From: Cytophagaceae bacterium | GTDB taxonomy: Bacteria > Bacteroidota > Bacteroidia > Cytophagales > Flexibacteraceae | Direction of reading: 5' to 3' | Assembly: GCA_947458545.1 (NCBI GenBank) | Contig: CANGYH010000006.1 | Span: 124,001 to 188,000, forward strand | Length of the DNA: 64,000 bases | The notes under the pieces: model-generated | The model's database searches: none | What the model was told of the DNA's origin: nothing | What the model saw: only the letters and a program-made list of their open reading frames with translations | Position numbers and translations under genes: made by a program | Shown here: positions 9,036-64,000 of the stretch, piece after piece | Layout: each line of letters starts with the position of its first letter | How positions within the stretch are numbered: the first letter of the stretch is position 1

Positions 9036-9064
9036 AAAGCCCCCCGGTAGTGCCGGGGGGCTTT
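9036..9064. terminator. Bidirectional intrinsic terminator
   Basis: Perfect 12-bp stem AAAGCCCCCCGG (9036-9047) / CCGGGGGGCTTT (9053-9064) with a five-base loop, just after the ABC transporter gene. Confidence 0.85.
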
Positions 9065-9118
9065 CTATTTGTGCCTCAGGCTTACCTTAGTGCGGGCCCG
9101 AGGGCTCCCTGCACACAT

Positions 9119-9598: not shown

Positions 9599-9806
9599 CC
9601 ACTTCCGGCGGTTAAAAGCCCTTGGTAAATCTTGCCCAGCAGGCTTAAGAAGACGTATGTGCGAACAATCTAAGCCATAACAAATTTTGCAACAATTGCA
9701 AAAATTGGAAAATAGTGTTCTAAATACGGAAAATTGGGCATCGGTCCTTAATAGCAAAACCCCAATAACACTGCATTCGGGGCTCTTTTAGAGGTTTGGT
9801 ACGCTT

Positions 9807-9823
9807 TGGCACAGCTATTGGCA
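9807..9823 (+). promoter_or_regulatory. Possible sigma-54-like promoter
   Basis: TGGCAC followed by TTGGCA resembles a -24/-12 promoter, but the spacing between the GG and GC pairs is one base longer than standard, so the match is weak. It lies just upstream of the structured noncoding stretch that ends in a strong terminator. Confidence 0.25.
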
Positions 9824-9834
9824 TAAGGAAAATC

Positions 9835-10180
9835 GTCTGGCCAGGGACGGCCCGGGCTCTACCTCCGGTTGGGGGTGAAGCCTGAGCCGCACCAGACTTG
9901 GGTACGGAGGATGGAAGCGATGCCCCTGCGGCGTCGGGCTATCTGGGCGCAAGCCCTTCCTGAGTCGGCTGGTCCTTCGGTAGCACAGGCCGGGGGAGGG
10001 AGAAGGGAAGGCGGTTGCCCTGCAGCCGCCCTCCTTAAAAAACCGCCGCGGTGGTCCAAACACCATCGGGTTGTGCCGGCAAGCCCAGGCTCACTACAAC
10101 AAGGTCTTGGCAACCAGCTAAAAAACGACTTAATAAACCGGGCTAGTTTGTGCCTAACAAGCTGGCCCGGTCTTTTTTAA
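9835..10180 (+). ncRNA. Candidate structured noncoding RNA
   Basis: No credible reading frame exists here, yet the + strand is rich in local pairing and ends in a strong intrinsic terminator. Stems visible: CCTCCG (9862-9867) with CGGAGG (9905-9910); GGGC-GCAA-GCCC (9945-9956), a GNRA tetraloop hairpin; GGCGGTT (10010-10016) with AGCCGCC (10024-10030). Purine-rich and pyrimidine-rich blocks lie around the last stem. It matches none of tmRNA, RNase P RNA or SRP RNA by their consensus cores as far as I can see. The 5' end is a guess from the weak promoter at 9807-9823. It could instead be an untranslated leader or repeat remnant. Confidence 0.4.
10137..10178 (+). terminator. Strong intrinsic terminator
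   Basis: A 15-bp stem with two G-U wobbles (10137-10151 / 10157-10171), a five-base loop and a TCTTTTTT tail. It lies about 540 bases after the DinB gene and before the next gene, so it most plausibly ends a separate transcript. Confidence 0.85.
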
Positions 10181-10314
10181 GGCAGCGGCATGCCGCCTTT
10201 CTAGACTACAAGCAGAGGTAATGGCCAAATCCATGCTCCTGCCAGGCAAACCGGACCCCCCTATGCCGCGCACAGAGGTCTCCGCTGTCCTGATTACCCA
10301 CAACCAGCTGCACC

Positions 10315-45480: not shown

Positions 45481-45489
45481 GCAAGGCAT

Positions 45490-45497
45490 TAAAGGTA
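45490..45497 (-). promoter_or_regulatory. -7 element (TACCTTTA) of the methyltransferase gene
   Basis: Nine bases before the ATG at 45480; divergent from the TonB receptor promoter at 45535-45542. Confidence 0.45.
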
Positions 45498-45534
45498 CGG
45501 CCTCTGTGGCTGGGCCAAGGCCTTGCCTAAGTGG

Positions 45535-45542
45535 CACCTTTG
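45535..45542 (+). promoter_or_regulatory. -7-like element (CACCTTTG) of the TonB receptor gene
   Basis: 38 bases before the ATG at 45581. Confidence 0.4.
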
Positions 45543-45580
45543 CAGGGCCAAGGCTTGCCTCCCGGGCTTGGCCATGTTTT

Positions 45581-48046
45581 ATGCGTAGCCGTAGCCTTCT
45601 GATTGCCTTAGCGATTGTCTGCCCCTGCCTGGTTGCCCATGCCCAGGGCATTGCCGGCCAAGTGCGCCAGCCAGACGGTGCCCCCGTGCCCTTTGCCACC
45701 CTGGCACTATTGCGGCCAGACTCTACCCTGGCAGGTGGTGCCCTGGCCGACGAGCAAGGCCGGTTCAGCGTGCAGGCGCCCCAGCCGGGCAGCTACCGCC
45801 TGCGGGCGCAGGCCTTGGGCTTTGCACAGCAAACCCGGCCTGTACAGGTGGGTGCCGCAGGCATCGCAAGCCTGCTTTTTACACTCTTACCTGATAGTAA
45901 ACAACTGGCCGAGGTAGAAGTGGTGGGCCGCAAGCCCTTTTTGGTGCAGGCAGCCGGGCGTACGATATTAAACGTAGAGGGCTCTATCGTAGCCACCGGC
46001 GCCACCGCACTAGAGGTGCTGCAGCGCGCCCCCGGCGTGATTGCAGACCAAAACGGCAACATCAGCCTGAAAGGCAAAAGCGATGTACTGGTGCTCATCG
46101 ACGGCAAGCCGACGCAGTTGCCTGCCGAACAGTTGGGCAATTACCTCAAAACCCTGCAAGCCAGCCAGATAGCCCAGATAGAGCTCATAACCAACCCAGA
46201 CGCCCGCTACGACGCCCAGGGCAACGCAGGCATCATCAACATCCGCCTCCGCAAAGGCGGGCCAGAGGGCACCACGGGCCGCGTATCTATCATGGCCGGG
46301 CATGGGCGCACGCACAAAAGCAACTCGACGGTGGCATTCTCTGCCCGGCGAGAAGGCCGCCATGTAGAGGCAACCTATACCTATGGAGACAACGGAGACC
46401 AGTTTGTGGCCCGCAACACCCGCATACAGGCACCAGGCTCTGGCCAAGAGGGCTACCAGCTCTACAACAACCAAGACTATTACTCAGTACGGGAGCGCGT
46501 CCATACCCTTGCCGCCACGGCGGGGCTGCCCCTGGGCCGCCGCACCACGGCCGAGGTGCAAGCCACCGGCTCGCGCCAGCGCAACCTGTACTTGGCAGAT
46601 GTAACCAGCCTGCTGACCAACCCCCAGGGCCAACTGGTGAAGCAGGTAAAGAGCTTCGACTACAACCCAGACCATTTCTTGAACGGCAGCGGCCGGCTGA
46701 CACTGCGCCACAAGCTGGGCCCAGACACCGGCCAGGCACAGCCCCACGAGCTGTCGGCCTGGGCCGACGTGGCCGCCTACAACCAAATAAGCCGGCAGAA
46801 CACCCCGTTTAACTATACCTTTTTTGCCGTGCCCGGTGGCCCCCGGCAAGACAGCACCGCTCAACAGTTGCTGCTCAACTACCTGCCTGCGCAAACCCGG
46901 GTACAAGTGGCCGCCATAGATTATACCCGCCCATTGGGCAACCGATGGCGGTTAGATGCAGGCGGCAAAACCACGGCCGTGCAGGTACGGTCTGAGGCAG
47001 AGGCACGCCTTGGCACGCCCGAGCCCGGCGGCAGGCCACCGGTAGATACAGGGCGATCGTCTGACTTCCGCTACCGCGAGACCATCGCCGCCGCCTACGG
47101 ATCTGCCACCTACAAGCACCGCCGGTGGGACATTACCCTCGGCCTGCGCCTAGAGCGTTGGCTGGCCCAGGGAGACCAGCGCCAGCGCAGCGGCGGCACC
47201 TTTACCCGAGACAGGCTCTGGCCCTTCCCCAATGTGCAGGCCAGCTATAGGCTAGACACAGCCCATACCTTCAGCTTCAGCTACAGCCGCCGCATAGACA
47301 GGCCCGCCTACAACAACCTGAACCCGATCCGCTTCTTTGCCGATCCTTTCAACTTTTTTGCAGGCAACCCGGCCCTGCGGCCCCAGCTTACCCAAAACGC
47401 AGAGCTGGCCCACACCCTGCTAGACGGCCTTCTGGTAACTACCCTAAACGCCAGCCGCACCCAAGACCTGATAGAGGAATATGCCCCCACACCGCTGGAG
47501 GGTAACCCAGCCGTCATCGGCATCAGCCCCCAAAACCTGGGCCGTCAAGACAATGTCGGCATAGCCGTGGCCGCCATGCTGCCCCTCGTCAACGAGAAGA
47601 GCCCCACCAGTCTATTTGTAAACGCCTTCCATTTGCGCACCGTGGCCAACTATTTTGGCATACCTATCAATGTGGGCTACAACACCTTTAACCTGAACCT
47701 GAACCAGCAACTGGTGTGGGGCAAGGGCTGGGCGGCAGAGGTATCGTGCTTTTACCAGCACTACATAAACGGTGGCCTAGGCACCACCCGGCCCGTGGCC
47801 AACCTGTCGGCCGGGGTGCAGCGCGAGCTTTGGGCCGGCCGCGGCAGCCTGAGGCTAACGGCAACAGACATGCTCTGGACGCAGAAATACCGCACAGACC
47901 GCAACGTGGGCTTCTTGCAGCAGAGCAGCTTCTTTAGGCAAGACTCGCGCCAGGTACGGCTAATCTTTAGCTACAGGTTTGGAGACCTTAAGGCCCCCAA
48001 GCCAGAGGTCAAAATCGAGCGCGACGAGCGGGCCAAAACCCGGTAA
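45581..48046 (+). CDS. TonB-dependent receptor, outer-membrane beta-barrel (OMP_b-brl_3 type)
   Basis: 821 residues: signal peptide (RSRSLLIALAIVCPCLVAHAQG), carboxypeptidase-regulatory-like domain (residues about 24-105: VRQPDGAPVPFATLALLRPDS), plug (RTILNVEGSIVATGATALEVLQRAPGVIADQNGNISLKGKSDVLVLIDGKPTQLPAEQLGNYLKTLQASQIAQIELITNPDARYDAQGNAGIINIRL), then a barrel of the OMP_b-brl_3 kind, ending in a strand with FSYRFGD and a basic tail. This class often imports metals or peptides. The ATG at 45581 starts the signal; the longer open frame upstream overlaps the divergent methyltransferase gene. Confidence 0.9.
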   Translation: MRSRSLLIALAIVCPCLVAHAQGIAGQVRQPDGAPVPFATLALLRPDSTLAGGALADEQGRFSVQAPQPGSYRLRAQALGFAQQTRPVQVGAAGIASLLFTLLPDSKQLAEVEVVGRKPFLVQAAGRTILNVEGSIVATGATALEVLQRAPGVIADQNGNISLKGKSDVLVLIDGKPTQLPAEQLGNYLKTLQASQIAQIELITNPDARYDAQGNAGIINIRLRKGGPEGTTGRVSIMAGHGRTHKSNSTVAFSARREGRHVEATYTYGDNGDQFVARNTRIQAPGSGQEGYQLYNNQDYYSVRERVHTLAATAGLPLGRRTTAEVQATGSRQRNLYLADVTSLLTNPQGQLVKQVKSFDYNPDHFLNGSGRLTLRHKLGPDTGQAQPHELSAWADVAAYNQISRQNTPFNYTFFAVPGGPRQDSTAQQLLLNYLPAQTRVQVAAIDYTRPLGNRWRLDAGGKTTAVQVRSEAEARLGTPEPGGRPPVDTGRSSDFRYRETIAAAYGSATYKHRRWDITLGLRLERWLAQGDQRQRSGGTFTRDRLWPFPNVQASYRLDTAHTFSFSYSRRIDRPAYNNLNPIRFFADPFNFFAGNPALRPQLTQNAELAHTLLDGLLVTTLNASRTQDLIEEYAPTPLEGNPAVIGISPQNLGRQDNVGIAVAAMLPLVNEKSPTSLFVNAFHLRTVANYFGIPINVGYNTFNLNLNQQLVWGKGWAAEVSCFYQHYINGGLGTTRPVANLSAGVQRELWAGRGSLRLTATDMLWTQKYRTDRNVGFLQQSSFFRQDSRQVRLIFSYRFGDLKAPKPEVKIERDERAKTR

Positions 48047-48879
48047 GGTTTGCCGGAAAAGAGATTGCAAAAATTGGAAAGTTTGCAATGAGCGAATAAT
48101 TAGAAAAGTGCAATCGCGTAGAAACTGAAGCAACTAAATGGGCTCGGGTCTGGCAACCCCATGTAAAAGCCTGCCCGAAGGTGTTGTGTTATGGGAGAAA
48201 GGCTCCAGAATCAGCAAAAAATTTCCGGAATTAGAAACGAGGATTCGCCGGCCCTGCTGACGCCAGCTGCCTGCGGCAAGGCCAAACTTACGCTTTCTGG
48301 TGTAAGGCTGAGGCTGGTTCTCCATTTTTGATGCATGAAATGGCGAGTAAAAAATAAATAAACAAATAAAACATATACATAAACCAATATACTGTTTAGA
48401 TACAAAATTAAAGTTGAATAAGTCATTTTCTGAACCTTGCCTGCATTTCTTACAGCCTATGCCAAGAGCGCAAAGGCCGCTAGGGGGGGTGGTTGTGGTG
48501 TTGAAGTTTTGTAAGGCGCAATTGAGCAAGCCCGGCAGGTACCACGAGTCCCCAAAAGCAGTGGCCGGTCTGGACTGTTTGACGGCGCAAGCCTCTACCC
48601 CAAGAGGCAACCTCCAAACTGCAAGGAGCGGGTGCTGCACCTGCTGCTAGCGCTTCAACCAAAAGGCAAGGCATAACAAGTGCCTTGGGTCTAAAAAAAC
48701 CGCCTAAGCCAGGCGGGCAGGCCTGTACTGCCTTTACTGAAACAGCTAGCGGCAATGTAAGTGCCTGGTAAACAGTAACAACACCCATAGCCCCCTCTGT
48801 GCCTAGCTGCCGCGCCAAGCCATTCTCCCCTTGGCGCAGTGGCAGCAAAAGCCAGAAAACCCCACTTTCTAACCCGTTT
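48047..48879. other. Noncoding upstream region of the giant gene
   Basis: About 830 bases without a credible gene. 48330-48430 is strikingly AT-rich for this GC-rich window and probably holds promoter DNA. Hairpins: CCGCCT/AGGCGG (48700-48716), with seven T residues downstream on the minus strand; AAGGCA/TGCCTT (48663-48686); GCGCCAAG/CTTGGCGC (48812-48837), extended by CTGCC/GGCAG. The last would lie in the giant gene's leader, ending 35 bases before the ATG. Confidence 0.5.
48693..48716 (-). terminator. Minus-strand terminator-like hairpin upstream of the giant gene
   Basis: Six-bp stem 48700-48705 / 48711-48716, followed on the minus strand by seven T residues (48699-48693). No minus-strand gene feeds it, so it may stop antisense transcription. 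Confidence 0.4.
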
Positions 48880-51800
48880 ATGAAAGCACCCCTACCCAAC
48901 GTATTTGGACGGATTGCAAGCCCTGGCCGCCTCTCGGCAAGGCAGATACGCCCTGGCGTACCCTTTGCGTCAGACGATGGCAACATTTATCTAAAGGTCT
49001 CTTGGGCACCATGGCTCAGTTTGGCCGAGCGTAGCATTACGCTGGGCATCGGGCTCTGGCTGGCACTGGCCCTAACCTTTAGCAGCCGTGCCTGGGCACA
49101 AACCAACTGCAACTGCCCAGCACCCGGGCAGACGATTACAGCCAATACGCTGGCAGGCTATGACCAGAACAATGCCAATCCGCTGTGCATAAACCTGCCC
49201 GGTAGTGGAGGGGCCTACACCTTTAACCAAGGCATTACCTACAACGGCAATACGCTTTGTATTGCAACCGGGGTAACGTTTGCGCCAAGCACGGCCAGCT
49301 ACAACGGCAGCAACCTGGTCATCACCAACAACGGCACATACCAGGGCCCTACCCTAAACCTGACGGCGGGCCGTGTGTTCCATAATTACGGCACCTTCTC
49401 CGGTGCAGTAAACCTAGACGGTGGGCGGATCTTCAACTACCCGGGGGCTTCGCTCAACATCACCGGGGGCACCAACAACAGCGGCCGCATCGTCAACCTG
49501 GCTGGCGGCAGCCTGGTGTGGAGCGGTAGCGGCACGCTGCGCCTCAACAACAACCTACGCCTAGACAATGCCGGCAACGGCCGCCTGGCCTTCAGCAACG
49601 TAAACTGGGAGACCATCACAGACACCATCCGCGGCAACCTGACGGTGGCCGGCAACGTCAGCAACGACCTGCCCACTGGCCAGACACTCTGGCTAAGCGG
49701 CATGCTCCGTGTAGAGGGCAACTATCAGCAAGGCAACAATGCTACGGTAGCTAGCCTAACGGGGGCTGGCTGTGCGGCATTGTCTGCCACCGGCAACATC
49801 CAAGGGCGTGGGTTTTACAATGGCACAGCCGGGCCTGGCCTGGCCTTGAGCACTACGCTGAACCCCAGCTGCCCCTCTTGCCTCTCTGGCACGGTAACTA
49901 CCACCATGCCGGGCAACCCAAATAACCAAGTAACTCTGAGCGCTACACTGACGGCCAGCGCCAACTACCGCAACATCAGCGGTAGCATTCAGGCTTATAC
50001 GCAAGGTGCTACCCAAGCTACGCACTACATCGTAGTGCGCCGTTTGGGAGCCGCCCCTGGCGCTGCCGAGACGCCTCAACCATTGGGCACCTACACCGTG
50101 GGCCAGCGCTTGGGCGCAGGCACCATCGTTGCCATTAACCCCATCGGCACCACCGGCTGGACGGACTTCGGCATTTTGGCCCAAAATGGTTGCCTGAGCA
50201 ACTACCAGTATGCGGCCTTTGCGCTAAACGGAACCTTTGGCGGAACTGCCTGCGGCGGGGGTGTTAACACCTCTGCCCCTACCGTCCGCACCTTTACAAA
50301 CGTAAATGCCGTGGCAGGCACCGTAACCCCCACACCGAGCGGCACCACCGTATGCGCTGGCGCAACACCCGCGCTGGCCCTGAGCGGCCACACGGGCCGT
50401 ATCATCCGCTGGGAGGTGGGGCCTGCGGGCTTTGCGACCTCAACGCCTATTGCCGGCTCTGACAGCCTGGCCAGTATCATCGCCCCTGCATTTACCACGG
50501 CTGCGCCTGCAGTGCGCGCCGTTGTTACTACAGGCCCTGGTTGCACCAATGCCACACCATCCCAGACGTTTACGGTCAATACTCCGCCCACGGTCAATGT
50601 CGGGCCCGCAATGGCTGCTACGTGCGCTGGTGTGGCTTCTGCACCGCTAGGCGGTTCAGTTAGCGCGGGTGCAACAGCGAGCTGGAGTAGCACACCATCT
50701 GGCGGAGCTTTTACTAACTCTACACAGCCCAATACCACCTTTACAGGCACTGCAGCAAACACCTATACATTAACGCTGACGGCCATTATAGCTGGCTGTA
50801 GCAATGCTACGGCCACCAAAACCATTGTGGTGCAGGCACCGGCTACAGTAAGCGCAGGTGCGGCCATGGTGGCCCAATGTACCAACAGCAGCTCAGTCGC
50901 CCTTGGCGGCTCGGTAGGCGGCGGCGCCACGGGCAGCACGTGGACGATTACGGCGGCCCCCGGCGGCCACACCGCCACCCTTACCAATGCCAACGACCCT
51001 GCCAATGCCACCTTTAACAGCGGCACGGTAGCAGGCACTTATACCCTGACCCTGACGGCCACCGGCTCGGTATGCGGCACGCCAACCGCCACCAAAAACA
51101 TTGTGGTGAACGCGCCACCGACCGCCAACGCGGGTGCCGCCATAGGACCCTTGTGTACCACCACGGGCAACACCACCCTGGGTGGTAGCATCAGCGCCGG
51201 CGCCACCGCAGCTTGGACGGTTAGCCCCACGGCCAGCACCACGCTGACCAACACCACCAGCGCAGCCAACGGCACCTTTGCAGCCATCGCAACGGGCACC
51301 TACACCGTTACGCTGACGGCCAGCATTGCCGGTTGCGCCAATGCCACGGCCTCGAAGAACATTGTGGTGAACGCGCCTGCCACCCTCAACGTGGGCCCGG
51401 CCATGGCGTCTATGTGCCCCGGCCAGACCTCGCTGGCGCTCGGTGGGTCCGTATCCGGTGGTGCAACCACAGGGGTATGGAACATCTCTGCGGCACCGGG
51501 CGGTAGCACGGCTACACTTACCAACGCCACCAATGCGGCGGCCGCCACCTTTAGCAGCGGCGCCGTAGCAGGTACCTACACCGTGCGCCTTGTGGCCGAT
51601 GCCGTGGCAGGTTGTGCGGCCCCGGCTGCCGTCACTAAAAACATTGCCGTGGTCGCCTTCCCCGTAGTGGCGGCCATTACGGGCCCGCAGGTAACCTGCG
51701 TGGGGGGCACAACACCCTTTGCCAACACCACCGCAGGCGGCACCTGGGCCAGCGACAATGTAGCCGTGGCCACAGTAAACAGTAGTGGTCTAGTAACAGG

Positions 51801-54800
51801 TGTAAGTGCAGGCACGGCCAACATCACCTACACCGTAACCACCAGCGGCTGCCCCACCACGGTGAGCCGCGCCGTTACGATCGTAACCACGCCCCAGGGC
51901 ACCGAGGGCCAGCCAGGCAACGGCCAGTGGAACGCCTACGTGTACAATGGTACCACCATCAGCACGGCCAATTATGCAGGCTGGTTTGCAGGCCCCGCGG
52001 CGCTGGGTTTCAACACCAACAGTGCTGCTATTTATCCGGCTACGGTGGCCCCCAGCACCAACAGCGCCTACCAGGGCTGCCAGGTGAGCGCCACCAACTA
52101 TGCCGTCAGGTTTCTGCGCACCGGGTTTGCACCTGGGGTGTACAGCATCGCCATTAATGCCGACGATCAAGGCATTTTCTTCTTAGACGGCCAGCAGATA
52201 CTCTCTGCTACCGCCAGTACCCTCAACTGGACAGGCAGCCTGACGCCCACCAGCGTCGTAGAGATGCGCCATCTCAATGCCTCTGGCAACGGCAATCTCA
52301 ACTTCGCCATTGCTTTGGTTGCGGCGCCTACCATGCCAACGCCGGGCAGCATAACCGGGGGAATGGGTATCTGTGCAACAGACAACCTGGCCGTAGCCCT
52401 CACCAGCACCGCCAACCCCGGAGCCGGCAGCTGCACAGGCCTCACGCCCCTCGTCCAGTGGGAGAGCTCGACCGATAAAGCCACCTGGGCCCCCATTGCC
52501 GGGGCTACGGGCAACGCCTACACCGTGCCCGCAGGCCTGGCTCAGACAACCTACTTCCGCCGTGCCCTGCGCACCTGGTGCGGCATCTACTACACCAACA
52601 CAGACTCTGTTGTTGTAAGCAACGGCCCCCAGGGAGACCCTGCCGCCTACCCTACCAACCAATGGAACGCCTACGTATACAGCAGCACCGGCTTCGGCAA
52701 CCTGGGCACGTACTTCGGCTACTTTACAGAGCCGCAGACCAACGTCAACACCTTTAACCAGGCCACCGTAGGCGGTTATGTGTCTGGTGCCTCGCCCAGT
52801 ATGGCCGGTACCTACCAGGGCTGCCTGGCGCCTGCCTCTAACCTGGGCATCAGCTTTAAGCGGACGGGCTTTGCCCCCGGCGCTTACCGCATCAACCTGC
52901 CCAACCACGACGACGGCGTCGAGCTCTACATAGATGGCACCCTTGCCTACAGCCTGAATGGATGCTGCCAAGACCGTGGCATAATCTGGACAGGGCAACT
53001 CACGGCTGCCTCGCAGGTAGAGGTGCGCCTCTTCCAGGGCGGCGGCGGCAGCGGCATCAACTTTACGCTGACGCCTTACACGCTGCAAGCCTCAGATTCT
53101 CTGCAGCCCGCCACCATCTCGCGCAGCCAGAGCATTTGCACAGGCCAGGTGCCTCAGTGGCCGCTGACGATCACCACCCCGGCCACCTCGGGCTGCAGCA
53201 TCCGCGGCTACCAGTGGCAGATCTCTACAGACAACATCGTCTTTACAGACATTGCCGGCGCCACCAATGCCACCTACAGCATCCCCAGCAACCTGACGGA
53301 GAACACCTGGTTCCGCCAGGTGGTAACAGACTGGTGCGGGGCCACCAAGGTGTCCAACGTCATTGTAATCACGATAGACAATACCACCCCAGGCGACCCT
53401 TCTATCTGGCCTGCCGGCCGCTGGAACGCCTACAGCTTTGCGGGCAACAACTATCAGGATTACGCGGGCTTCTTCCCGGTAAACAGTCTCTCCTTCATCT
53501 CTACAGATTTTTACGGTACCACGCAAAGCCCCTCGTTTGCGCCCGGCTACGGTGGCTGCCAGATCCCGCCCGTAAATCACTCGGTGATTTACCGCCGCGT
53601 GGGGGCGCCTGCACTGCCCGCCGGCCAGGTGTACCGCATAGACGTTACCCAGCTCGATGATCAGGGCGCATTGCTGATAGACTCTCAGCAGGTTTGGTCT
53701 GCCAACTGCTGCATTGCGCCACTGACGCCTGCCACCGGTGTCTGGACGGGCCCCATAGATGCCACCACCAACCTAGAGGTGCGCCACCGCGCCTTTGGTA
53801 GCCCCAACTCCATCGGCCTCACCTTTACGGCTGTGCCCCGGCCAACGTCTGTTAATCCGGGCGCCATCGCTGGCAGCACCACCATCTGCTCGGGCGACAT
53901 CCCCATGGCGGGCTTCAGCAACGCCACCTTGCCCAGCAACGGCTGCTCGGTAGATTACTACCGCTGGCAGATTTCCACCGACGCCGGTGCCACCTGGCTA
54001 GACCTGCCCAACTCCAACAGTGCCAGCTTTACGCCGGTGCAGTCTATCTACGGAGCACCTGGCGCGCAGACACTGTTCCGCCGCCGCGTGTTCGACCTCT
54101 GCGGCAACGTGGCCGCCACCGCCCCCGTGGTAGTAACCATCCAGAATACGGTGCCCGGCAACCCGGCCACCTTTGGCACCAACACTTGGAACGTCTATGC
54201 CTACGACGATCCCAACTTTGCCCTCTACGTTGGCTTCTATACAGAAGACAACCTGGCCTTCAACACCCGGACGCGCTACGCGGCCACGCTTCCGCCTTCT
54301 GCCGCAGGTACCACGGCCAGCGGGCAGGGCTTCGTGGGTTGCCAGCAGACCAACACCCAATGGTCTGCCTCTGCCCGGCGCCGTGGCCTGGGCACCAACC
54401 CAGCCGGCTACTACCGCTTCAACATCAATTGGCACGACGACAACATCACCTTCTTGGTAAACGGCCAGCAGGTTTTCCAGCACATTGGCTGCTGCGACAG
54501 CCACGCCGACGTGTGGACGGGCTACGTTGACAACACCACCACGCTGGAGTGGCGCTGGGTCAACTTCCCCGGCCCGGGCGGCCTGGATTTTACGGCCGTG
54601 TACCTGGGCACCACCCCGCCTACCAACCTGCGCCCCGGCACGCTGCAAACCAGCCAGCTAAGCTTCTGCCCCGGCGACCCCGTCAATGTTTATTCTGACT
54701 CTGCCGCCTACAACGCCTGCTATCCGCAATACCAGTGGCAGCGCTGGGACGGCACCGCCTGGCAAAACGTATCAGGCGGCACCTCCGAAGATCTGCTCAA

Positions 54801-57800
54801 CCAGCCCTCTATTACAGACTCTGCCACCTACCGCCGCGGCGCTACCGACATCTGCGGCAACGCCATGGTGTACACCGCTCCCATCACGGTGCGGGCCTCA
54901 TCAAACACGCCGCCAACCCTGCTGCCCAACCGGTGGACGGTGATGCTCTACAACAGCAACGACTACACCTCTAACTACGCTGGCTTCTATACAGAAGACA
55001 ACGTTGACATCAACACGACGCTGCGCCACGGCAACTCGGCGCCGCCCTCGCAGGCCAATGCCCTTACGGGCCAGGCATACACCGGCTGCCTCACCAACTC
55101 TACCAACTACACGGTTCGGTATGTGCGCACGGGGTTCCCAGCGGGTCGGTATTCCATAGACATCCTCGGCCACGACGATGACGTAATCTTGCTGGTAAAC
55201 GGCGTAGAGGTTTACCGCCACCTTGGCTGCTGCGATGCCCATGCCGGCGTATGGCTCGGAGACCTTGGCGCTGCCAGCACGGTAGAGTTCCGCTACCGCA
55301 ACGGTGGCGGCCCCGGCAACCTGCACGCCGTATTTGCCCCGGCCGTAGCCCCCATACCCCTGAGCCCCGGCACCATTGCCGCTGCCCAGAGCTCTGTGTG
55401 TGCAGGCAGCCCGGCAACCATTAACCAGGCCACGGCCGCCTCGGGCTCTTGCACGGTGGCCAACTTCCAGTGGCAGCAATCGCCAGACGGTAGCAGCTGG
55501 GCCGATATAGCCGGGGCTACGCTGGCCAACTACACCAGCGGCCCACTAGCGGCAGCTACTTGGTTCCGCCGTCAAGACATTGACGCCTGCGGTGCCACCG
55601 CCTTTACCAACGCTGTGCAGGTTACCCTTTTGCCTGCCGTGTCTGCCCCGGTAATAGGTGCTAACCAGGCCATTTGCGCCGGTGCTACGCCAGCGGCCCT
55701 TACCGTGCCTACGGCAGCCTCTGGCGGCAACGGCACGTTTAGCTACCGCTGGGAGGTCTCTACGGATAGCATCACCTTCAGCCCCACGGGCTCTGCCTCG
55801 GCCACACCACAAAGCCTGGCACTGCCTGCCCTATCCAGCCCGCGCTGGTATCGCCTGGGCGTAACGGCCTGCGGCGGCACAGTGTACTCTAATGTGGTGC
55901 GCGTACGCATCAATCCCAATACGGCCATCACGGCCCAGCCTCAGAACTGGACGGGCTGCAGCGGCGCGCAGGCGGTGTTCACCGTCGGGGCAAACGGCAC
56001 CAACCTTACCTACCAGTGGCAGCTGTCAACCAACAGCGGCAGCACCTGGGCAAACATCACCTCTGGGGCCGCCGGCGAGTCTGGCTGGGCAACATCTACC
56101 CTGACGGTAAACATCCCCGCGCCGATTCCGGCCAATACGCGCCGCTACCGGGTCATCGTTAGCGGGGCCTGCGGTACCAACCCGGCAACGTCTGGCCAGG
56201 CCAACCTGAACCTGGGCGCTCCTACGATGCGCACCCAGCCCACCAACGCCTCGGCTTGCGTAGGGGCTACGGCCACCTTTGCGGCCGCAGGTACAGGCGC
56301 TACGCTTTTCCAGTGGCAAACCTTCCGCAGCGGTGCCTGGCGCAACGTTGCCAACGCAGGTGCCTACAGCGGTGCCAATACGGGTACGCTCACCATCAAC
56401 CCCGTGCAAGACACGCTCAACGGCAGGCAGTTCCAGTGCATCCTCACCAACGGATGCGCCGGCAGCACCACCTCTACGGCTGCCACGCTCAGCACCAACC
56501 AGCCCATTGCCAACAACACCGTGCCTGCCACCTTTACGCTCTGTGCCCTGGGCACGGGCACCCCACTTGGGGCCTCTACCCCATCGGGCGGCTCTGGCAG
56601 CTACACCTACCAGTGGGAGCGCTCGCTCGTAGGCCCTAGCAGTGGCTTTGTAGCCATGGCAGGCCAAACCGGGCTAGACTATACGCCTGCAGGCTGGGCT
56701 CAAAACGTGTGGGTGCGCCGTGTGGTAACATCCGGTGGCTGCACCAGCACCAGCAACGCGACGGCCATCACCGTGGCCCCTACGTTTGCCATCAACACGC
56801 AGCCCGTCTCTGCCACGGTGTGCCCCAGCGGCACGGCCACATTTTCTGTAGATGTAACCGGCTCGGCAGTAACCTATCAGTGGCAAGACAGCACCGGCGC
56901 CAGCGGCTGGAACAACGCCAACGGCGGCGTGTACAGCGGCCAGAACACCCCTACGCTCACGGTAACCAACCCCGGCCTGGGCCGAGACGGCCACCGCTTC
57001 CGCGTGCTTATTACCGGCACGGGCAGCTGCACAGGCACTACCGTCACCTCGCGCTCGGCCAGGCTTACGACGGCCGGCGTGCTGCCTACCATTACCCTGC
57101 AGCCTGCCGCCACCACCAACTGGTGCACAGCCAGCCCGGCTACCATACCCATGGCAGCCACCGGCACCGGCCTCACCTATCAGTGGCAGTTGCGCCAGCC
57201 CGGCGGCAGCTTCGTAAACCTGATCAACGGAGCCATCTATAATGGCGTGGCCACCAATACACTCACCATCCTGAACCCCTCTGCCGTGTACCAGGGCTAC
57301 GAGTACCGCGTGGTAGTCAACAACAGCTGCGGCGTGCCCGTAACCAGCAACAGCAGCTTCTACAACCAGGTAAGCGCCATTGCCAACAACTCGGTAAGCT
57401 CTCCGCAAAACCTTTGCGCGGGCTCTGTGCCGGTGGGCCTGGTAGGCAGCACCCCTACGGGTGGGTCTGGCACCTACGTCTATCAGTGGCAGATGGCCCC
57501 CGCCTCTACAGGTACCTGGGCCAACATTGCCGGGGCCACGGGCATCAACTACAACCCGCCTGCCCTCAACGAGACGACGCAGTTCCGCCGCCTGGTAACC
57601 TCTACCGGCACCAATTGCGCCACCTCCATCAGCCTGGCCATCAACCTCTCTGTAGATCAGCCACCCACCGTAGCCCCGCTGCCCGCCAACACGGGTACCT
57701 GTGCAGGCACCAGCGTCAACATTGCCGCTACGGCCACGGGCAACAACATCAGCTACCAGTGGCAGGTTAGCACCAACAACGGTGCCAGCTGGGCCAATGT

Positions 57801-60800
57801 GGCCAACGGCTCGCAGTATGCCAACGCCACCACGGCTACCATGCGCATCAACGGTACACCGGCCGGTTTCAACGGCTACCTCTACCGTGTGCTGGTAACC
57901 GGAGACTGCGGCGGCGTAGCCAACAGCGTTGTAACCTCTACGGCAACTACCCTGGTGGTAAACCCCGGCGCAACCATCACCGCCGAGCCTGCCAACCGCA
58001 CCATCTGCGCCAACGGCTCTACCACCTACACCTTTAGCTACACGCTGCCAGCCCCTGGCACCTTGCCGCTAACCTTCCAGTGGCAAGAGCGTATCGGCGG
58101 CGGTGGCTATGCCAACATCAGCAACGGAGGCACCTTCTCTGGCGTAACCACTCAGACGCTGACGCTAACGGCCGTACCCGCCAGCTGGAACAACAACCGA
58201 CGCTACCGCTGCGTGGTTACCTACGGCGGCTGCCCCGTGTTTACATCGGCCGGGCAAGGCACGCTTACGGTGCAGCCCCTGCCAACGCTGGCGCTTACGG
58301 CCACGGCCAACCCCATCTGCGTAGGGCAGAGCACCACCCTCAACATCGGCGGAGCTACCACCTACAGCTGGAGCACAGGCTCTACGGCCAACGCCATCAC
58401 GGTATCGCCTACGGCCTCTACCGTCTATAGCGTAACGGGCACCAACACGGCTACCGGTTGCCAAAACACAGCCAGCCTAACGGTAACCGTCAACCCGCTT
58501 GTTACCCCCGCGGTATCCATCAGCACCGCGGCCACCACCATCTGCGCAGGCACCACGGCCACCTTTACGGCCACGCCTACCAACGGCGGAGCCAGCCCTG
58601 TCTACCAGTGGCGCATCAACGGCAATCCGGTGGGCACCAACAGCCCGACGTTTGCCACCAGCGCCTTGGCCAATGGCGACGTAGTAACCTGCCGCCTGAC
58701 GAGCAACGCAACCTGCGCCAGCCCGGCCCAGGCCACCAGCAGCGGCATTACCATGGCGGTAACCCCCACCGTGCAGGCGCCGACGGCCATCGCCGGCCCG
58801 GCCGAGCTTTGCCAGGCCACCGCCAGCACAGACTTTACGGCCACCGTGGGCGGCGTGTACACCAGCCTGACCTGGTCTGTAACGGCAGGTGCGGGCACGG
58901 CCACCGGTACGGGCACAACAGGCACCATCAGCTGGAACCCCGCCTTCACCGGAACGGCCACCGTGTCTGCGGTAGCCAACGGCTGCGGCGGTGCCTCTGC
59001 GGCGCGCACTTTCGACGTACGCGTCATCCCCTCGGGCACATGGCTGGGCACCACGGCAGACTGGAACAACCCCGCCAACTGGTGCGGTGGCGTGCCAACG
59101 CTAACCTCTACCGTGCTTATCCCGGCCGGTGTGCCCAACATGCCTGCCGTCTCTGCCAATGCAGCTACGGGTGCGCTCACCATCCAGCCAGGTGCGGGCC
59201 TCACCCTCACGGGCACATCGGTGCTTACCATTGCAGGCTCTGTATCGCAGTTGGGCACCTTTGCCCCAGGGGCTGCCTCTACCGTGGCCTACACCGCCAC
59301 GGCCGCGCAAGCGGTGGTGCCAGCCAACTACGGCCACCTTACCTTGAGCGGTGGGCCCAAGGTCCTCACAGGCACCGTGCGCATCAGCGGAGACTTTACC
59401 GCCGCTGCCAGCAGCTACACCGTTGCAGGCTCTACCATCGAGTTTAACGGCACAGCCGCGCAAACGGTGCCTGCCTTCACCTTCAACAACCTGACGGTGA
59501 GCGGCGGCAGCACCAAGACGATGGACGGGAACGTGACCGTCAACGGCGGCCTCAACCTGACGGCCGGTAAACTGGCCCTGGGGGCCAACACCCTGGCCAT
59601 CAATGGGCCCATCGGCGGCACGGGTACGCTGGTGCCTGCCTGCGCCTCTACCCTGTCTATCGGTGGTGCAGGTGCTACGGGTACCCTCCGGTTCGACCCT
59701 GCTGCCCAAGACCTGGGCACCCTGGCCATGGCCAAGGCAAGCGCCGGCAACGTTGCCCTGGGCAACAACGTCAACATCTGCACCAGCCTGCAGCTTACCC
59801 AAGGCAACATCTTGCTGGGCGGCAATACCCTCACCGTGCTGCCGGGTGCCACGCTCAGCGGCGGCAGCGCCAACAGCTACATCGTCACGCCAGACCAGGT
59901 CAGCCCCACGGGCGCCGGTTTCTTGGTGCAGCGGCTGGCTACGGGTGCTGGCCAGCGCCTCTTCCCCGTAGGCACGGCCGGTAGTTACACCCCGGCCCTG
60001 ATGGCCAACGTGGGCACCAGCCGAGACATGCGCGTGCGCGTCTTCAACAACGTGTACGAGAACGGCATAGCCGGGCCAGCCATCCAAAACCTGGAGGCAT
60101 CGGTGAAAAAGACCTGGGAGATTGAGCCCCTGCCCGGTGCCGGTACGCCCGACGTTGCCATCACCCTGCAGTGGAACCCTGCCGACGAGGGCACCTTCTT
60201 TGCCGGGGCGCGTGTCAACCGCCTCGCTTACATCGGCAAAAACACCGGCGTCGGCAACAGCCCCTGGGTAAAGCAAACCGTATCTGCCCTGCAGGTTACC
60301 ACGGCACCCTACCGCATAGCCACGCCGTCTATCACCAGCTTTAGCAAGTTTGCCATCGGCAGCGAGATGACGCCGCTGCCCGTGACGATGGGGGACCTGA
60401 CGGTAGATGCCGACAAGGCCCACAACGTACTGCACTGGAGCACCTACGCCGAGATCGAAAGCCGCGGCTTCGAGGTGCTGCGCTCGGCAGACGGCCAGCG
60501 GTTCGAGAAGATCGCCTTCGTAGAAGGTGCCGGCAACAGCCAGACGGTACGCCAATACAGCCACCAAGACGTAGCCCGCCCCGGCCGCACCTACTACAAG
60601 ATTCGCTTCGTAGGCCGTGCCGAAGGTGATGAGGCCTTCTCTAACACAGTGCAGGTAGTCGGTACGGCCGAGCAGCCCTTCAGCGTGTACCCCAACCCGG
60701 CTACAGACATCCTGTACCTGGAGGGTGCCGACGAAGAGGCCACCTTTACCCTGACAGACCTCAAGGGCACCCAGTTCTACCTCGACACCCGCCGCAAGGC

Positions 60801-60906
60801 ACCCGGTGCGCTGCGGGTAGATATCCGCCACCTGCCGCAGGGTGTGTATGTGCTAGAAAAACGCGACGCCAACGGCCGGGCTACCGTCCGTGTGGTAAAG
60901 CAGTAA
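48880..60906 (+). CDS. Giant multidomain surface protein with T9SS type A sorting domain
   Basis: About 4,008 residues from ATG 48880 (a TTG at 49021 is an alternative; the first gives an unusually long signal-peptide n-region before ERSITLGIGLWLALALTFSSRAWAQ). Order: beta-helix-like start (49100-50250); four Ig-like repeats of about 88 residues (50592-51650); a BIG2-like domain (ASDNVAVATVNSSGLVTGVSAGTANITY); five units of about 250 residues, each a PA14/lectin-like domain plus an Ig-like domain (51916 to about 55600); many Ig-like repeats with YQWQ motifs (to about 59030); WLGTTADWNNPANWCGG; a second beta-helix-like stretch; and the T9SS tail YPNPATDILYLEGADEEATFTLTDLKG. Adhesion or carbohydrate binding at the cell surface is inferred. 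A terminator follows. Confidence 0.9.
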   Translation: MKAPLPNVFGRIASPGRLSARQIRPGVPFASDDGNIYLKVSWAPWLSLAERSITLGIGLWLALALTFSSRAWAQTNCNCPAPGQTITANTLAGYDQNNANPLCINLPGSGGAYTFNQGITYNGNTLCIATGVTFAPSTASYNGSNLVITNNGTYQGPTLNLTAGRVFHNYGTFSGAVNLDGGRIFNYPGASLNITGGTNNSGRIVNLAGGSLVWSGSGTLRLNNNLRLDNAGNGRLAFSNVNWETITDTIRGNLTVAGNVSNDLPTGQTLWLSGMLRVEGNYQQGNNATVASLTGAGCAALSATGNIQGRGFYNGTAGPGLALSTTLNPSCPSCLSGTVTTTMPGNPNNQVTLSATLTASANYRNISGSIQAYTQGATQATHYIVVRRLGAAPGAAETPQPLGTYTVGQRLGAGTIVAINPIGTTGWTDFGILAQNGCLSNYQYAAFALNGTFGGTACGGGVNTSAPTVRTFTNVNAVAGTVTPTPSGTTVCAGATPALALSGHTGRIIRWEVGPAGFATSTPIAGSDSLASIIAPAFTTAAPAVRAVVTTGPGCTNATPSQTFTVNTPPTVNVGPAMAATCAGVASAPLGGSVSAGATASWSSTPSGGAFTNSTQPNTTFTGTAANTYTLTLTAIIAGCSNATATKTIVVQAPATVSAGAAMVAQCTNSSSVALGGSVGGGATGSTWTITAAPGGHTATLTNANDPANATFNSGTVAGTYTLTLTATGSVCGTPTATKNIVVNAPPTANAGAAIGPLCTTTGNTTLGGSISAGATAAWTVSPTASTTLTNTTSAANGTFAAIATGTYTVTLTASIAGCANATASKNIVVNAPATLNVGPAMASMCPGQTSLALGGSVSGGATTGVWNISAAPGGSTATLTNATNAAAATFSSGAVAGTYTVRLVADAVAGCAAPAAVTKNIAVVAFPVVAAITGPQVTCVGGTTPFANTTAGGTWASDNVAVATVNSSGLVTGVSAGTANITYTVTTSGCPTTVSRAVTIVTTPQGTEGQPGNGQWNAYVYNGTTISTANYAGWFAGPAALGFNTNSAAIYPATVAPSTNSAYQGCQVSATNYAVRFLRTGFAPGVYSIAINADDQGIFFLDGQQILSATASTLNWTGSLTPTSVVEMRHLNASGNGNLNFAIALVAAPTMPTPGSITGGMGICATDNLAVALTSTANPGAGSCTGLTPLVQWESSTDKATWAPIAGATGNAYTVPAGLAQTTYFRRALRTWCGIYYTNTDSVVVSNGPQGDPAAYPTNQWNAYVYSSTGFGNLGTYFGYFTEPQTNVNTFNQATVGGYVSGASPSMAGTYQGCLAPASNLGISFKRTGFAPGAYRINLPNHDDGVELYIDGTLAYSLNGCCQDRGIIWTGQLTAASQVEVRLFQGGGGSGINFTLTPYTLQASDSLQPATISRSQSICTGQVPQWPLTITTPATSGCSIRGYQWQISTDNIVFTDIAGATNATYSIPSNLTENTWFRQVVTDWCGATKVSNVIVITIDNTTPGDPSIWPAGRWNAYSFAGNNYQDYAGFFPVNSLSFISTDFYGTTQSPSFAPGYGGCQIPPVNHSVIYRRVGAPALPAGQVYRIDVTQLDDQGALLIDSQQVWSANCCIAPLTPATGVWTGPIDATTNLEVRHRAFGSPNSIGLTFTAVPRPTSVNPGAIAGSTTICSGDIPMAGFSNATLPSNGCSVDYYRWQISTDAGATWLDLPNSNSASFTPVQSIYGAPGAQTLFRRRVFDLCGNVAATAPVVVTIQNTVPGNPATFGTNTWNVYAYDDPNFALYVGFYTEDNLAFNTRTRYAATLPPSAAGTTASGQGFVGCQQTNTQWSASARRRGLGTNPAGYYRFNINWHDDNITFLVNGQQVFQHIGCCDSHADVWTGYVDNTTTLEWRWVNFPGPGGLDFTAVYLGTTPPTNLRPGTLQTSQLSFCPGDPVNVYSDSAAYNACYPQYQWQRWDGTAWQNVSGGTSEDLLNQPSITDSATYRRGATDICGNAMVYTAPITVRASSNTPPTLLPNRWTVMLYNSNDYTSNYAGFYTEDNVDINTTLRHGNSAPPSQANALTGQAYTGCLTNSTNYTVRYVRTGFPAGRYSIDILGHDDDVILLVNGVEVYRHLGCCDAHAGVWLGDLGAASTVEFRYRNGGGPGNLHAVFAPAVAPIPLSPGTIAAAQSSVCAGSPATINQATAASGSCTVANFQWQQSPDGSSWADIAGATLANYTSGPLAAATWFRRQDIDACGATAFTNAVQVTLLPAVSAPVIGANQAICAGATPAALTVPTAASGGNGTFSYRWEVSTDSITFSPTGSASATPQSLALPALSSPRWYRLGVTACGGTVYSNVVRVRINPNTAITAQPQNWTGCSGAQAVFTVGANGTNLTYQWQLSTNSGSTWANITSGAAGESGWATSTLTVNIPAPIPANTRRYRVIVSGACGTNPATSGQANLNLGAPTMRTQPTNASACVGATATFAAAGTGATLFQWQTFRSGAWRNVANAGAYSGANTGTLTINPVQDTLNGRQFQCILTNGCAGSTTSTAATLSTNQPIANNTVPATFTLCALGTGTPLGASTPSGGSGSYTYQWERSLVGPSSGFVAMAGQTGLDYTPAGWAQNVWVRRVVTSGGCTSTSNATAITVAPTFAINTQPVSATVCPSGTATFSVDVTGSAVTYQWQDSTGASGWNNANGGVYSGQNTPTLTVTNPGLGRDGHRFRVLITGTGSCTGTTVTSRSARLTTAGVLPTITLQPAATTNWCTASPATIPMAATGTGLTYQWQLRQPGGSFVNLINGAIYNGVATNTLTILNPSAVYQGYEYRVVVNNSCGVPVTSNSSFYNQVSAIANNSVSSPQNLCAGSVPVGLVGSTPTGGSGTYVYQWQMAPASTGTWANIAGATGINYNPPALNETTQFRRLVTSTGTNCATSISLAINLSVDQPPTVAPLPANTGTCAGTSVNIAATATGNNISYQWQVSTNNGASWANVANGSQYANATTATMRINGTPAGFNGYLYRVLVTGDCGGVANSVVTSTATTLVVNPGATITAEPANRTICANGSTTYTFSYTLPAPGTLPLTFQWQERIGGGGYANISNGGTFSGVTTQTLTLTAVPASWNNNRRYRCVVTYGGCPVFTSAGQGTLTVQPLPTLALTATANPICVGQSTTLNIGGATTYSWSTGSTANAITVSPTASTVYSVTGTNTATGCQNTASLTVTVNPLVTPAVSISTAATTICAGTTATFTATPTNGGASPVYQWRINGNPVGTNSPTFATSALANGDVVTCRLTSNATCASPAQATSSGITMAVTPTVQAPTAIAGPAELCQATASTDFTATVGGVYTSLTWSVTAGAGTATGTGTTGTISWNPAFTGTATVSAVANGCGGASAARTFDVRVIPSGTWLGTTADWNNPANWCGGVPTLTSTVLIPAGVPNMPAVSANAATGALTIQPGAGLTLTGTSVLTIAGSVSQLGTFAPGAASTVAYTATAAQAVVPANYGHLTLSGGPKVLTGTVRISGDFTAAASSYTVAGSTIEFNGTAAQTVPAFTFNNLTVSGGSTKTMDGNVTVNGGLNLTAGKLALGANTLAINGPIGGTGTLVPACASTLSIGGAGATGTLRFDPAAQDLGTLAMAKASAGNVALGNNVNICTSLQLTQGNILLGGNTLTVLPGATLSGGSANSYIVTPDQVSPTGAGFLVQRLATGAGQRLFPVGTAGSYTPALMANVGTSRDMRVRVFNNVYENGIAGPAIQNLEASVKKTWEIEPLPGAGTPDVAITLQWNPADEGTFFAGARVNRLAYIGKNTGVGNSPWVKQTVSALQVTTAPYRIATPSITSFSKFAIGSEMTPLPVTMGDLTVDADKAHNVLHWSTYAEIESRGFEVLRSADGQRFEKIAFVEGAGNSQTVRQYSHQDVARPGRTYYKIRFVGRAEGDEAFSNTVQVVGTAEQPFSVYPNPATDILYLEGADEEATFTLTDLKGTQFYLDTRRKAPGALRVDIRHLPQGVYVLEKRDANGRATVRVVKQ
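50592..51650 (+). repeat. Four tandem Ig-like repeats within the giant gene
   Basis: Copies begin near 50592, 50848, 51124 and 51385, period about 260-275 bases. Each runs from VNVGPAMA/VSAGAAMV-like to TATKxIVV-like, with LGGSVS in the first half and YTLTLTA near the end. Confidence 0.8.
51916..55600 (+). repeat. Five tandem PA14/lectin-like plus Ig-like compound units within the giant gene
   Basis: Units begin near 51916, 52654, 53419, 54181 and 54928, period 738-765 bases. Shared landmarks: W(N/T)xY or WTVMLY at the start, GCQ or GCL, RTGFAPG-like, a D(D/H)(Q/D)G or HDD segment, GCC or NCC, VWTG-like. Copy 1 lacks the Cys-Cys. Confidence 0.8.
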
Positions 60907-62437: not shown

Positions 62438-64000
62438 TTGACTTTACGCCAATTCATTCAGATAATTGCCATAGGCCTGGCCTGTTGCCAGGCGGGCAAG
62501 GCCAACGCCCAGGGCATCCGAGGGCTCGTCAGCGGCGACGACGGCCCCATCGCCTACGCCAGCATACGGGCCGAAGGCAACGGCACTGGCACCATGGCCA
62601 ACCCCGAGGGCCGCTACGAGCTAAAGCTGCCCCCCGGCCGCCATACGGTGCTGTTTCAGTCGCTGGGCTACAAGGTAGAGCGGCGTACCGTAGAGGTGCC
62701 TGCCCAAGGCTGGGCCGACCTGGACATTCGCCTGCAAACACAGGCCATCCAACTCAAAGAGGCCAACGTAGGCACGCGCGAGGACCCGGCCTACTCCATC
62801 ATGCGGCGGGCCATTGCCAAGGCCCCCATACACCGCATGCAGGTGCTGGGCTACCAGGCCAAGGCCTACATACGCGGCGGTGGGCAGCTTAAAGAGGTGC
62901 CCTGGCTCATCCGGGGCAAGGTAAAAGAGGCCGGCATAGACCCCAACACCGTCTTCTTTATCGAGAACGTGTCTGAGATCACCTACCGGGCACCCAACTT
63001 CTATAAAAACCGGGCCATCTCCATCCGCAGCAACATGCAGGCTCTGGGCAACAACCTACCCAATCCGGCGGGCTACGTCAGCCAGTCGTTTTACGAGACC
63101 AAGGTGGGCAGTGCCGTGTCGCCCCTCTCGCCTCGGGCCTTTAGCTACTACCGCTTCAGCTACGAGGGCATCTTTGAAGACCGCGGCGTAGAAGTAAACA
63201 AAATCCGCGTGCAGCCCCGGCAGCGGGGCGACGACGTCTTTGACGGCTACATCTACGTCATAGAAGGCGACTGGAGCCTGCACAGCCTGCAGCTTACCAC
63301 CCGCCACGAGGGCATCACCGCCACCTATAACCACCTCTACAGCCCCATGCAAGGTGTATGGATGCCCGCCACGCAGAAGTATCTGATAACAGGCAAGGTA
63401 TATGGGTTTAGGTTTGAGTTTACCTACGTGGCCAGCCTGCGAGACTATAAGCTGCAGGTGAACCCCGCCCTGGTAAAACCCATTGAGGTGATAGACGAAA
63501 AGGCCGCGCCCGAAGAAGCACGCGCCCTCCGCAAAGCTGAGCGCCGCAAAAGCGACCAGGCCCTGGCCCAAACCCTGGCAGACACCAACGGCCGCATGAC
63601 ACGCAAAACCATGCGCAAACTGGCCCGCAACCTGCGCCGCCAAGAGCGCGCCGAGGCCCGCGCCGCCAACAACGGGCACGACGTCGTAGCCCAAGACAGC
63701 ACCGTCATAGACAGCAACGCCTACAAGCGCGACAGCACCTACTGGGCCAGCGCCCGCCCCATTCCGCTGACGGCCCAAGAGGTGCGCAGCACCCGCAAGC
63801 TCGACAGCCTGGGCGTAGAAATCAAGAAAGAAATGGCCAAAGACTCTGCCAAGGCCAAAAAGAGCGAGGGCGGTTTTGACATTGGCTGGATTACCTGGGG
63901 CCGCACCTTTTACACCTACCGCCGCACCGGCGACACCCTGCCCGGCGGCAAGCCCAAGCGCGAGCGCACCCCGCACCAGATTATCTACCGCGGCCTGCTA
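62438..64000 (+). CDS. DUF5686 protein with carboxypeptidase-regulatory-like domain, 3' part missing
   Basis: 521 codons are in the window, reading off the right edge. Signal-like start from a TTG at 62438 (TLRQFIQIIAIGLACCQAGKANAQ); no ATG is available nearby. Residues about 26-110 are a carboxypeptidase-regulatory-like domain (GLVSGDDGPIAYASIRAEGNGTGTMANPEGRYELKLPPGRHTVLFQSLGYKVERR). Then comes the DUF5686 core (AYSIMRRAIAKAPIHRMQVLGYQAKAYIRGGG ... GYVSQSFYETKVGSAV, PRQRGDDVFDGYIYVIEGDWSLHSLQL) and a basic helical stretch (residues about 365-415). DUF5686 proteins are outer-membrane barrels of unknown cargo. The start codon is uncertain. Confidence 0.83.
   Translation, partial: MTLRQFIQIIAIGLACCQAGKANAQGIRGLVSGDDGPIAYASIRAEGNGTGTMANPEGRYELKLPPGRHTVLFQSLGYKVERRTVEVPAQGWADLDIRLQTQAIQLKEANVGTREDPAYSIMRRAIAKAPIHRMQVLGYQAKAYIRGGGQLKEVPWLIRGKVKEAGIDPNTVFFIENVSEITYRAPNFYKNRAISIRSNMQALGNNLPNPAGYVSQSFYETKVGSAVSPLSPRAFSYYRFSYEGIFEDRGVEVNKIRVQPRQRGDDVFDGYIYVIEGDWSLHSLQLTTRHEGITATYNHLYSPMQGVWMPATQKYLITGKVYGFRFEFTYVASLRDYKLQVNPALVKPIEVIDEKAAPEEARALRKAERRKSDQALAQTLADTNGRMTRKTMRKLARNLRRQERAEARAANNGHDVVAQDSTVIDSNAYKRDSTYWASARPIPLTAQEVRSTRKLDSLGVEIKKEMAKDSAKAKKSEGGFDIGWITWGRTFYTYRRTGDTLPGGKPKRERTPHQIIYRGLL

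Follow-up and report, generated by a model that had tools for sequence, protein, structure and literature searches.

The five-unit repeat and its predicted fold

The window, that is, the whole 64,000-nucleotide stretch analysed here (from contig CANGYH010000006.1 of the Cytophagaceae bacterium assembly GCA_947458545.1), carries a giant open reading frame (ORF) of 4,035 codons at positions 48799-60906; coordinates are positions within the window and on the + strand unless stated otherwise. Three in-frame start codons (GTG at 48799, ATG at 48880 and TTG at 49021) precede a signal-peptide-like stretch, which, read by eye, begins immediately 3' of the TTG. Given these possible starts, the encoded surface protein is about 3,960-4,035 amino acids long. 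We found that it contains five PA14-like units of 142-149 residues, each followed by an immunoglobulin (Ig)-like stretch. Unit 1 (51895-52320) has an Asp-Asp (DD) motif but neither the adjacent cysteines (CC) seen in the other units nor an aromatic residue in their place. Unit 2 (52630-53070) has HDD and CC, unit 3 (53389-53820) has LDD and CC together with Ala at the second calcium-loop position, and units 4 (54154-54600) and 5 (54901-55335) both have HDD and an HxGCCDxH loop; the structure of unit 5 was modelled. HDD in copies 2, 4 and 5 agrees with the earlier note on this DNA, and DD is present in all five.

Our data indicate that the five-copy repeat proposed in the earlier note for a protein of about 4,000 residues is real. 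The units are 34-38% identical to unit 1 and share 17 invariant columns, and their BLOSUM62 pairwise scores range from 140 to 298 in 10 of 10 pairs. The top score was 62 among 300 comparisons in a shuffled control and 65 among 165 comparisons with windows from the remaining protein, so that both a chance origin of the repeat and mere background similarity to the Ig-like remainder are ruled out. Copies of about 250 residues including an Ig-like spacer had been described; this holds for the repeat period of 245-255 residues, of which the PA14-like domain itself makes up about 145. In the remaining protein, Pfam recognised Big_2 above its cut-off and PKD_6 below it.

AlphaFold2 models of unit 5 (79-row alignment) and unit 1 (46-row alignment) reached predicted local distance difference test (pLDDT) scores of 95.6 and 93.3 and predicted template modelling (pTM) scores of 0.90 and 0.88, respectively. 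The top Foldseek match for both was MhPA14 (PDB 6m8m; E 5.2e-5 for unit 5 and 1.1e-5 for unit 1), and VIA likewise placed both at Z 11.2 against 6m8m (2.8 Å over 130 residues and 2.7 Å over 127 residues). MpPA14 was also among the fold matches, the yeast Flo/Epa/Cea1 domains scored Z of about 8-11, and the highest VIA match was an anti-sigma factor domain (Z 12.6 and 12.9 for the two unit models). The models thus clearly predict a PA14 beta-sandwich fold. In Pfam, the whole protein scored 29.1 bits against the PA14 family (PF07691; cut-off 24) with no single stretch passing; unit 1 alone reached 14.7 bits (E 0.028), three of the five units appeared at E ≤ 10, and 19 of 79 relatives matched at E ≤ 1 (best E 0.0011). 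GLEYA was absent from the families in Pfam-A scans of the units and of their relatives, among the 25 of 35 families listed for the latter. Structure prediction, fold search and the whole-protein Pfam score therefore bear out the PA14-like fold suggested earlier, the profile score passing its cut-off for the whole protein and for no single unit.

Conserved motifs across the family

Searches with unit profiles gave 222 matches at ≥20 bits, of which 195 from 72 loci passed the cut-offs (≥45 bits, with 110 model positions spanned) and 27 were dropped. The DD motif occurs in five of five units (52162-52167, 52909-52914, 53656-53661, 54436-54441 and 55174-55179 in units 1 to 5) and in 168 of the 195 family domains. 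In a weak alignment (E 0.3), the family profile places DD on Asp136-Asp137 of MhPA14 (6m8m) and the acidic or amide residue ahead of the GG loop, referred to here as the second calcium-loop residue, on Asp181. According to PMC6650083, the sugar of MhPA14 is held by calcium 1, which has Asp136, Asp137 and Asp181 among its ligands; PMC8092209 describes the same Asp-Asp motif as holding calcium and sugar in MpPA14, with loops 9 and 11 assisting sugar binding. This is suggestive of DD being a putative DcisD calcium motif like that of PA14 lectins, including in unit 1. The earlier idea that acidic residues could shape a calcium site is thus supported by the DD alignment, weak as it is. The second calcium-loop residue in units 1 to 5 is Asn, Gln, Ala, Asn and Asn.

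We found only four CC dipeptides in the whole protein, all at one place in units 2 to 5: residues 1389-1390 (52963-52968), 1637-1638 (53707-53712), 1898-1899 (54490-54495) and 2144-2145 (55228-55233). Composition alone predicts 1.6 such dipeptides (P of at least four, 0.08), so the evidence lies in their common position and not in their number. The pair follows the first Asp of DD by 17-18 residues and precedes W-(T/L)-G by 8-12 residues; unit 1 has a shorter loop that lacks CC. The pair and its W-(T/L)-G strand are therefore present in four copies as first described, although about 35 residues before the unit end and not at it. Since Ser130 of MpPA14 loop 9 lies about 20 residues past Asp-Asp (PMC8092209), the pair probably sits in the equivalent of this sugar-contacting loop.

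Across the family, CC is an all-or-none feature, present in 100 of 195 domains and absent from 95, and its expected conservation in homologues thus holds for about half of them. Both cysteine columns agree in 191 rows (98 with both Cys, 93 with neither), and the four mixed rows comprise two alignment shifts of a true CC (unit 3 of the window protein and L121) and two Cys-rich loops without CC. The copies at L083 and L099 have, where the CC loop would be, a longer loop in which several cysteines stand apart from one another. HxGCCDxH is the main CC type, with the His, Asp and His all present in 65 of 100 CC copies and none of them in 32.

Copies without CC often carry an aromatic residue instead: W, Y or F occupies the first Cys column in 46 of 95 (24 W, 14 Y and 8 F), while 49 of the 195 copies have neither CC nor an aromatic. 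In a 180-domain set (<90% identity), aromatics make up 43 of 88 letters at the first Cys column and 0-4 in the other loop columns shown, save for 14 in column 277 and 76 in a conserved core Trp column. In eight copies at least two of the three His/Asp frame residues are kept while Trp or Tyr replaces the first Cys, and orthologous middle copies have GCCD in L115 versus GWGD in L118 (79% identity) and L124 (74%). Canonical PA14 domains beside family members in other genomes have Tyr or Phe at the first-Cys position in six cases, which suggests that the aromatic may be the older state, a point on which the unrooted tree is neutral. In genomes of the same class, a canonical-looking PA14 domain with Tyr or Phe at this position stands directly ahead of a family domain in the same protein at L028, L031, L029, L011, L012 and L013.

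We found that the state of this loop goes together with DD. The motif is retained by 99 of 100 copies with CC, 42 of 46 with an aromatic and 27 of 49 with neither (Fisher P versus the last group 8e-12 for CC and 7e-5 for aromatic, uncorrected for kinship), and after thinning to <60% identity in 53 of 53, 21 of 23 and 22 of 38, respectively. The second calcium-loop residue is D, E, N or Q in 97 of 100 CC, 45 of 46 aromatic and 41 of 49 remaining copies; D or N alone accounts for 34 of 100, 20 of 46 and 19 of 49. On a quick unrooted tree of the 180 domains, built after the loop and Asp-Asp columns were removed, CC changed at least 36 times (mean 61 and minimum 54 in 50 label shuffles) and Asp-Asp at least 20 times. 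Tree-corrected pairs lean toward a coupling of loop state and Asp-Asp, in numbers too small for significance.

Spacer cysteines, secretion and distribution

The protein holds 80 cysteines. Apart from the pair, the sole cysteine of units 2 to 5 is that of a GC dipeptide, and the Ig-like domain after each unit has a third cysteine that may match it. In spacer 1 (52321-52629) this is Cys 1212 (52432-52434), with GC Cys 1094 of unit 1 as the candidate partner. The extra cysteines of spacers 2 (53071-53388), 3 (53821-54153) and 4 (54601-54900) are Cys 1466 (53194-53196), Cys 1716 (53944-53946) and Cys 1974 (54718-54720), with Cys 1342, Cys 1587 and Cys 1848 as candidate partners, and the Ig-like domain after unit 5 (55336-55632) has Cys 2218 (55450-55452), with Cys 2097. 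Judged by cysteine counts, the third Ig cysteine may be bonded to the GC cysteine of its unit in an inter-domain disulfide. Most other Ig-like domains of the protein seemingly have two cysteines each, as judged by eye.

The same bookkeeping can be applied to the family. Copies with a GC but no CG cysteine and a single Ig-like spacer have an odd spacer count in 36 of 38 cases, and those with both GC and CG cysteines and a double spacer have four spacer cysteines in 61 of 76. With CC set aside, the cysteine total is even in 15 of 16 CC and 18 of 22 non-CC copies with single spacers, and in 26 of 36 and 21 of 35, respectively, with double spacers. Since the remaining cysteines mostly balance without it, the pair appears largely self-contained, with exceptions.

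The C-terminus of the giant protein is a type IX secretion type A sorting domain (TIGR04183; residues 3963-4035, positions 60685-60903) that scores 38 bits against a cut-off of 23. The genome (3.23 Mb in 9 contigs) encodes 90 tails of this type at E ≤ 0.001, 84 of them above the cut-off, as well as a SprA whose open frame spans 2,551 residues. With both the C-terminal domain and SprA present, the giant protein is a predicted type IX secretion cargo (type A). The same genome has a second giant open frame, of 5,583 amino acids, that also carries a type IX sorting domain (G000:C4:30844-31083). Among 28 C-termini of family ORFs, namely those of the window protein and of the 27 of 28 relatives' ORFs that end within their locus, a type A domain was found at E ≤ 0.01 in 27 and a type B domain in 2; the ORF at 6351-8609 of L124, which ends inside the repeat, was excluded. 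In L124, either a frameshift or an assembly error divides the three-copy protein between two overlapping ORFs that lie in different frames (6351-8609 and 8558-10906).

We next consider how widely the units occur. Of 395 genomes sampled from the phylum, 19 had matches to the five-unit profile; with a nine-row profile, matches turned up in 7 of 11 genomes from the family and in 36 of 390 from the order. The source genome is counted each time, the tallies contain some weak matches that are possibly ordinary PA14, and no more than 10 candidates per genome were scored in the large searches. A scan of named genomes found 33 loci, including some in Chryseolinea lacunae, Ohtaekwangia koreensis, Adhaeribacter soli and Mesonia sp., and in metagenome genomes labelled Flammeovirgaceae, Cyclobacteriaceae, Cytophagaceae, Chitinophagaceae and others. 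Family ORFs contain one to six copies. Relatives are spread across Bacteroidota, mostly in type IX secreted proteins. A viral source was considered and rejected: an IMG/VR scan gave 25 pattern matches and no relatives among them, and a viral fold library returned generic PA14 proteins. The ORFs that flank the adhesin gene in the window, at 45335-48046 and 62438-64000, encode a TonB-receptor-like protein and a DUF5686 protein with a CarboxypepD_reg-like domain, and we saw no link between either neighbour and the adhesin.

A candidate sugar platform and its alternatives

We consider it about an even bet that the units are calcium-dependent lectins in which a vicinal disulfide replaces the aromatic residue that stacks on the sugar. 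Each unit would be a lectin domain of the PA14 type that type IX secretion displays on the cell. DD and the Asn, Glu, Gln or Asp of the second loop would hold a calcium ion, which would in turn grip neighbouring hydroxyls of the sugar. At the same end of the domain, the loop past the next beta-hairpin (about residues 108-113 in the unit 5 model) would contact the sugar ring, through the vicinal disulfide of the Cys pair in about half of the members and through an aromatic side chain at the same position in about a quarter, both offering a flat hydrophobic patch. The strands of the unit 5 model lead from the CG position to Asp-Asp, return, and lead forward once more to CC, an order that would put CC and Asp-Asp at one end of the domain and the CG position at the other. 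Carried on Ig-like spacers, five such units would form a multivalent adhesin, and loop changes between copies would alter the ligand. We infer the calcium, the sugar, the disulfide state, the position of the loop relative to the calcium, the stacking and the adhesion alike. Unit 1 would keep its calcium residues and lack the platform. It had been suggested that this copy lost or changed its binding, and "changed" suits it better than "dead" since it retains DD and the second-calcium-loop Asn in the absence of a Cys pair or aromatic.

The closest known counterparts are MhPA14 and MpPA14, the PA14 lectins of RTX adhesins (PDB 6m8m, 5j6y, 6x7j and others), which share with the units the beta-sandwich, Asp-Asp, a second calcium loop (a candidate one in the units), a loop after the Asp-Asp hairpin that lies, or in the units would lie, near the sugar and a place within a giant surface adhesin. 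They differ in length (177-188 residues in the PDB chains versus 142-149 in the units, at 10-18% identity), and the protein described here stands apart by its five copies, its type IX secretion where theirs is type I and its Cys pair; the word "disulfide" is absent from the main text of PMC6650083 and PMC8092209. PMC12102755 describes vicinal disulfides in contact with the undecorated face of a sugar ring. Examples such as the arabinofuranosidase 1wd4 resemble our proposal in having adjacent cysteines by the sugar site, although they belong to another protein family and the disulfide of the units is a predicted one. Our searches of open-licence literature turned up no account of such a Cys pair in a bacterial PA14 domain.

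Several observations weigh against the proposed lectin platform. DD persists in more than half of the copies that lack both CC and an aromatic (27 of 49), and the tree-corrected comparisons with DD are underpowered, both for CC or aromatic (2.2 pairs in the same direction and 0.2 in the other among 9 supported pairs) and for CC alone (2.0 and 0.2 among 11). In unit 3 the second calcium-loop residue is Ala. Weak profile matches link the family to MhPA14 (E 0.3) and to the canonical PA14 domains, five in all, that the source genome encodes (hhalign probability 15.7, E 0.0016). The VIA scores of GH31/GH3 enzyme domains (about 9-11) are near those of lectins. With double spacers the even cysteine count fails in 10 of 36 CC and 14 of 35 non-CC copies, and such a count cannot separate a vicinal bond from two free thiols. 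Searches of the source genome for VKOR and DsbB found neither, other oxidation routes lying outside these searches.

A PA14-fold module that binds no sugar would account for part of this. Its loop and cysteines would stabilise a spacer-like or protein-binding domain, and Asp-Asp would hold a structural calcium or nothing. The fold leaves a lectin role undecided, since an anti-sigma factor domain tops the VIA comparison and carbohydrate-enzyme domains reach Z 9-11, so that fold alone is no proof of an adhesin; the 49 of 195 copies with neither CC nor an aromatic also suit such a module. We nevertheless regard it as rather unlikely, because Asp-Asp is best retained in copies with CC or an aromatic, because the variable residue, judged by spacing and the weak profile alignment, would map to the sugar-adjacent loop of MhPA14/MpPA14, and because marked variation of a single loop among copies suits ligand choice more than stability. 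The cysteines might instead be arranged as in Flo1 and Flo5, with those of the pair bonded to other cysteines and not to each other. The yeast Flo/Epa/Cea1 PA14 adhesins are calcium lectins with this fold and Asp-Asp, Flo1 and Flo5 show CC shortly past Asp-Asp (4lhl and 2xjp alignments), the CC motif of Flo/Epa is said in PMC6218569 to tie the terminal ends to the core, and bonding partners in the Ig-like spacers are conceivable here. However, the first Asp and first Cys are 15 residues apart in 4lhl versus 17-18 here, a difference in CC spacing of 2-3 residues, and the end cysteines of Flo/Epa are absent within units 2 to 5, which besides the pair hold just the GC cysteine. The GC cysteine occurs in 98 of 100 CC copies and in 83 of the 95 that lack CC, and its retention without CC indicates that it is independent of the pair. 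At the sequence level the family is not of the Flo/Epa CC type, as spacing and missing end cysteines set it apart, and we find a Flo-like bonding pattern improbable.

Two further proposals concern the chemistry of the pair. HDD...HxGCCDxH could be a transition-metal site, for zinc or copper, in place of a disulfide. His240, Asp264 and His277 (alignment columns) and the His before DD go strongly with CC (Fisher P 3e-10 to 2e-16, uncorrected), and 65 of 100 CC copies have all three loop residues. Against this, 32 of 100 have none, and a Cys-ligated metal would not permit the eight copies in which Trp or Tyr stands for the first Cys while two or more of these residues remain. Among the 11 tree-corrected pairs, the counts with and against CC were about 2.7 and 1.0 for His240, about 2.6 and 1.0 for His277, 2.6 and 0.0 for Asp264, and 0.7 and 1.3 for the His before DD, all at low power. 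We give such a metal site very little credence. There is a similarly slender chance that the units form a redox-gated lectin array, in which the disulfide is both platform and switch, oxidised pairs bind, reduced pairs do not and aromatic copies are always on. If so, the grip of the adhesin would respond to oxygen or thiols, and exchange between CC and Trp-Gly would set the switchable fraction.

Canonical bacterial PA14 domains (PF07691), which also occur on contigs 1 and 2 of this genome, share the Asp-Asp hairpin with the family, whereas no single unit of the window protein reaches the Pfam cut-off. If the calcium-dependent lectin interpretation is true, these units would belong to a family of bacterial lectins that exchange a vicinal disulfide and an aromatic residue at a single site, and they would provide natural-experiment evidence that a vicinal disulfide can replace an aromatic sugar platform. 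This would point to a repertoire of sugar recognition in the type IX adhesins of Cytophagales-like bacteria and their relatives that domain databases have scarcely recorded.

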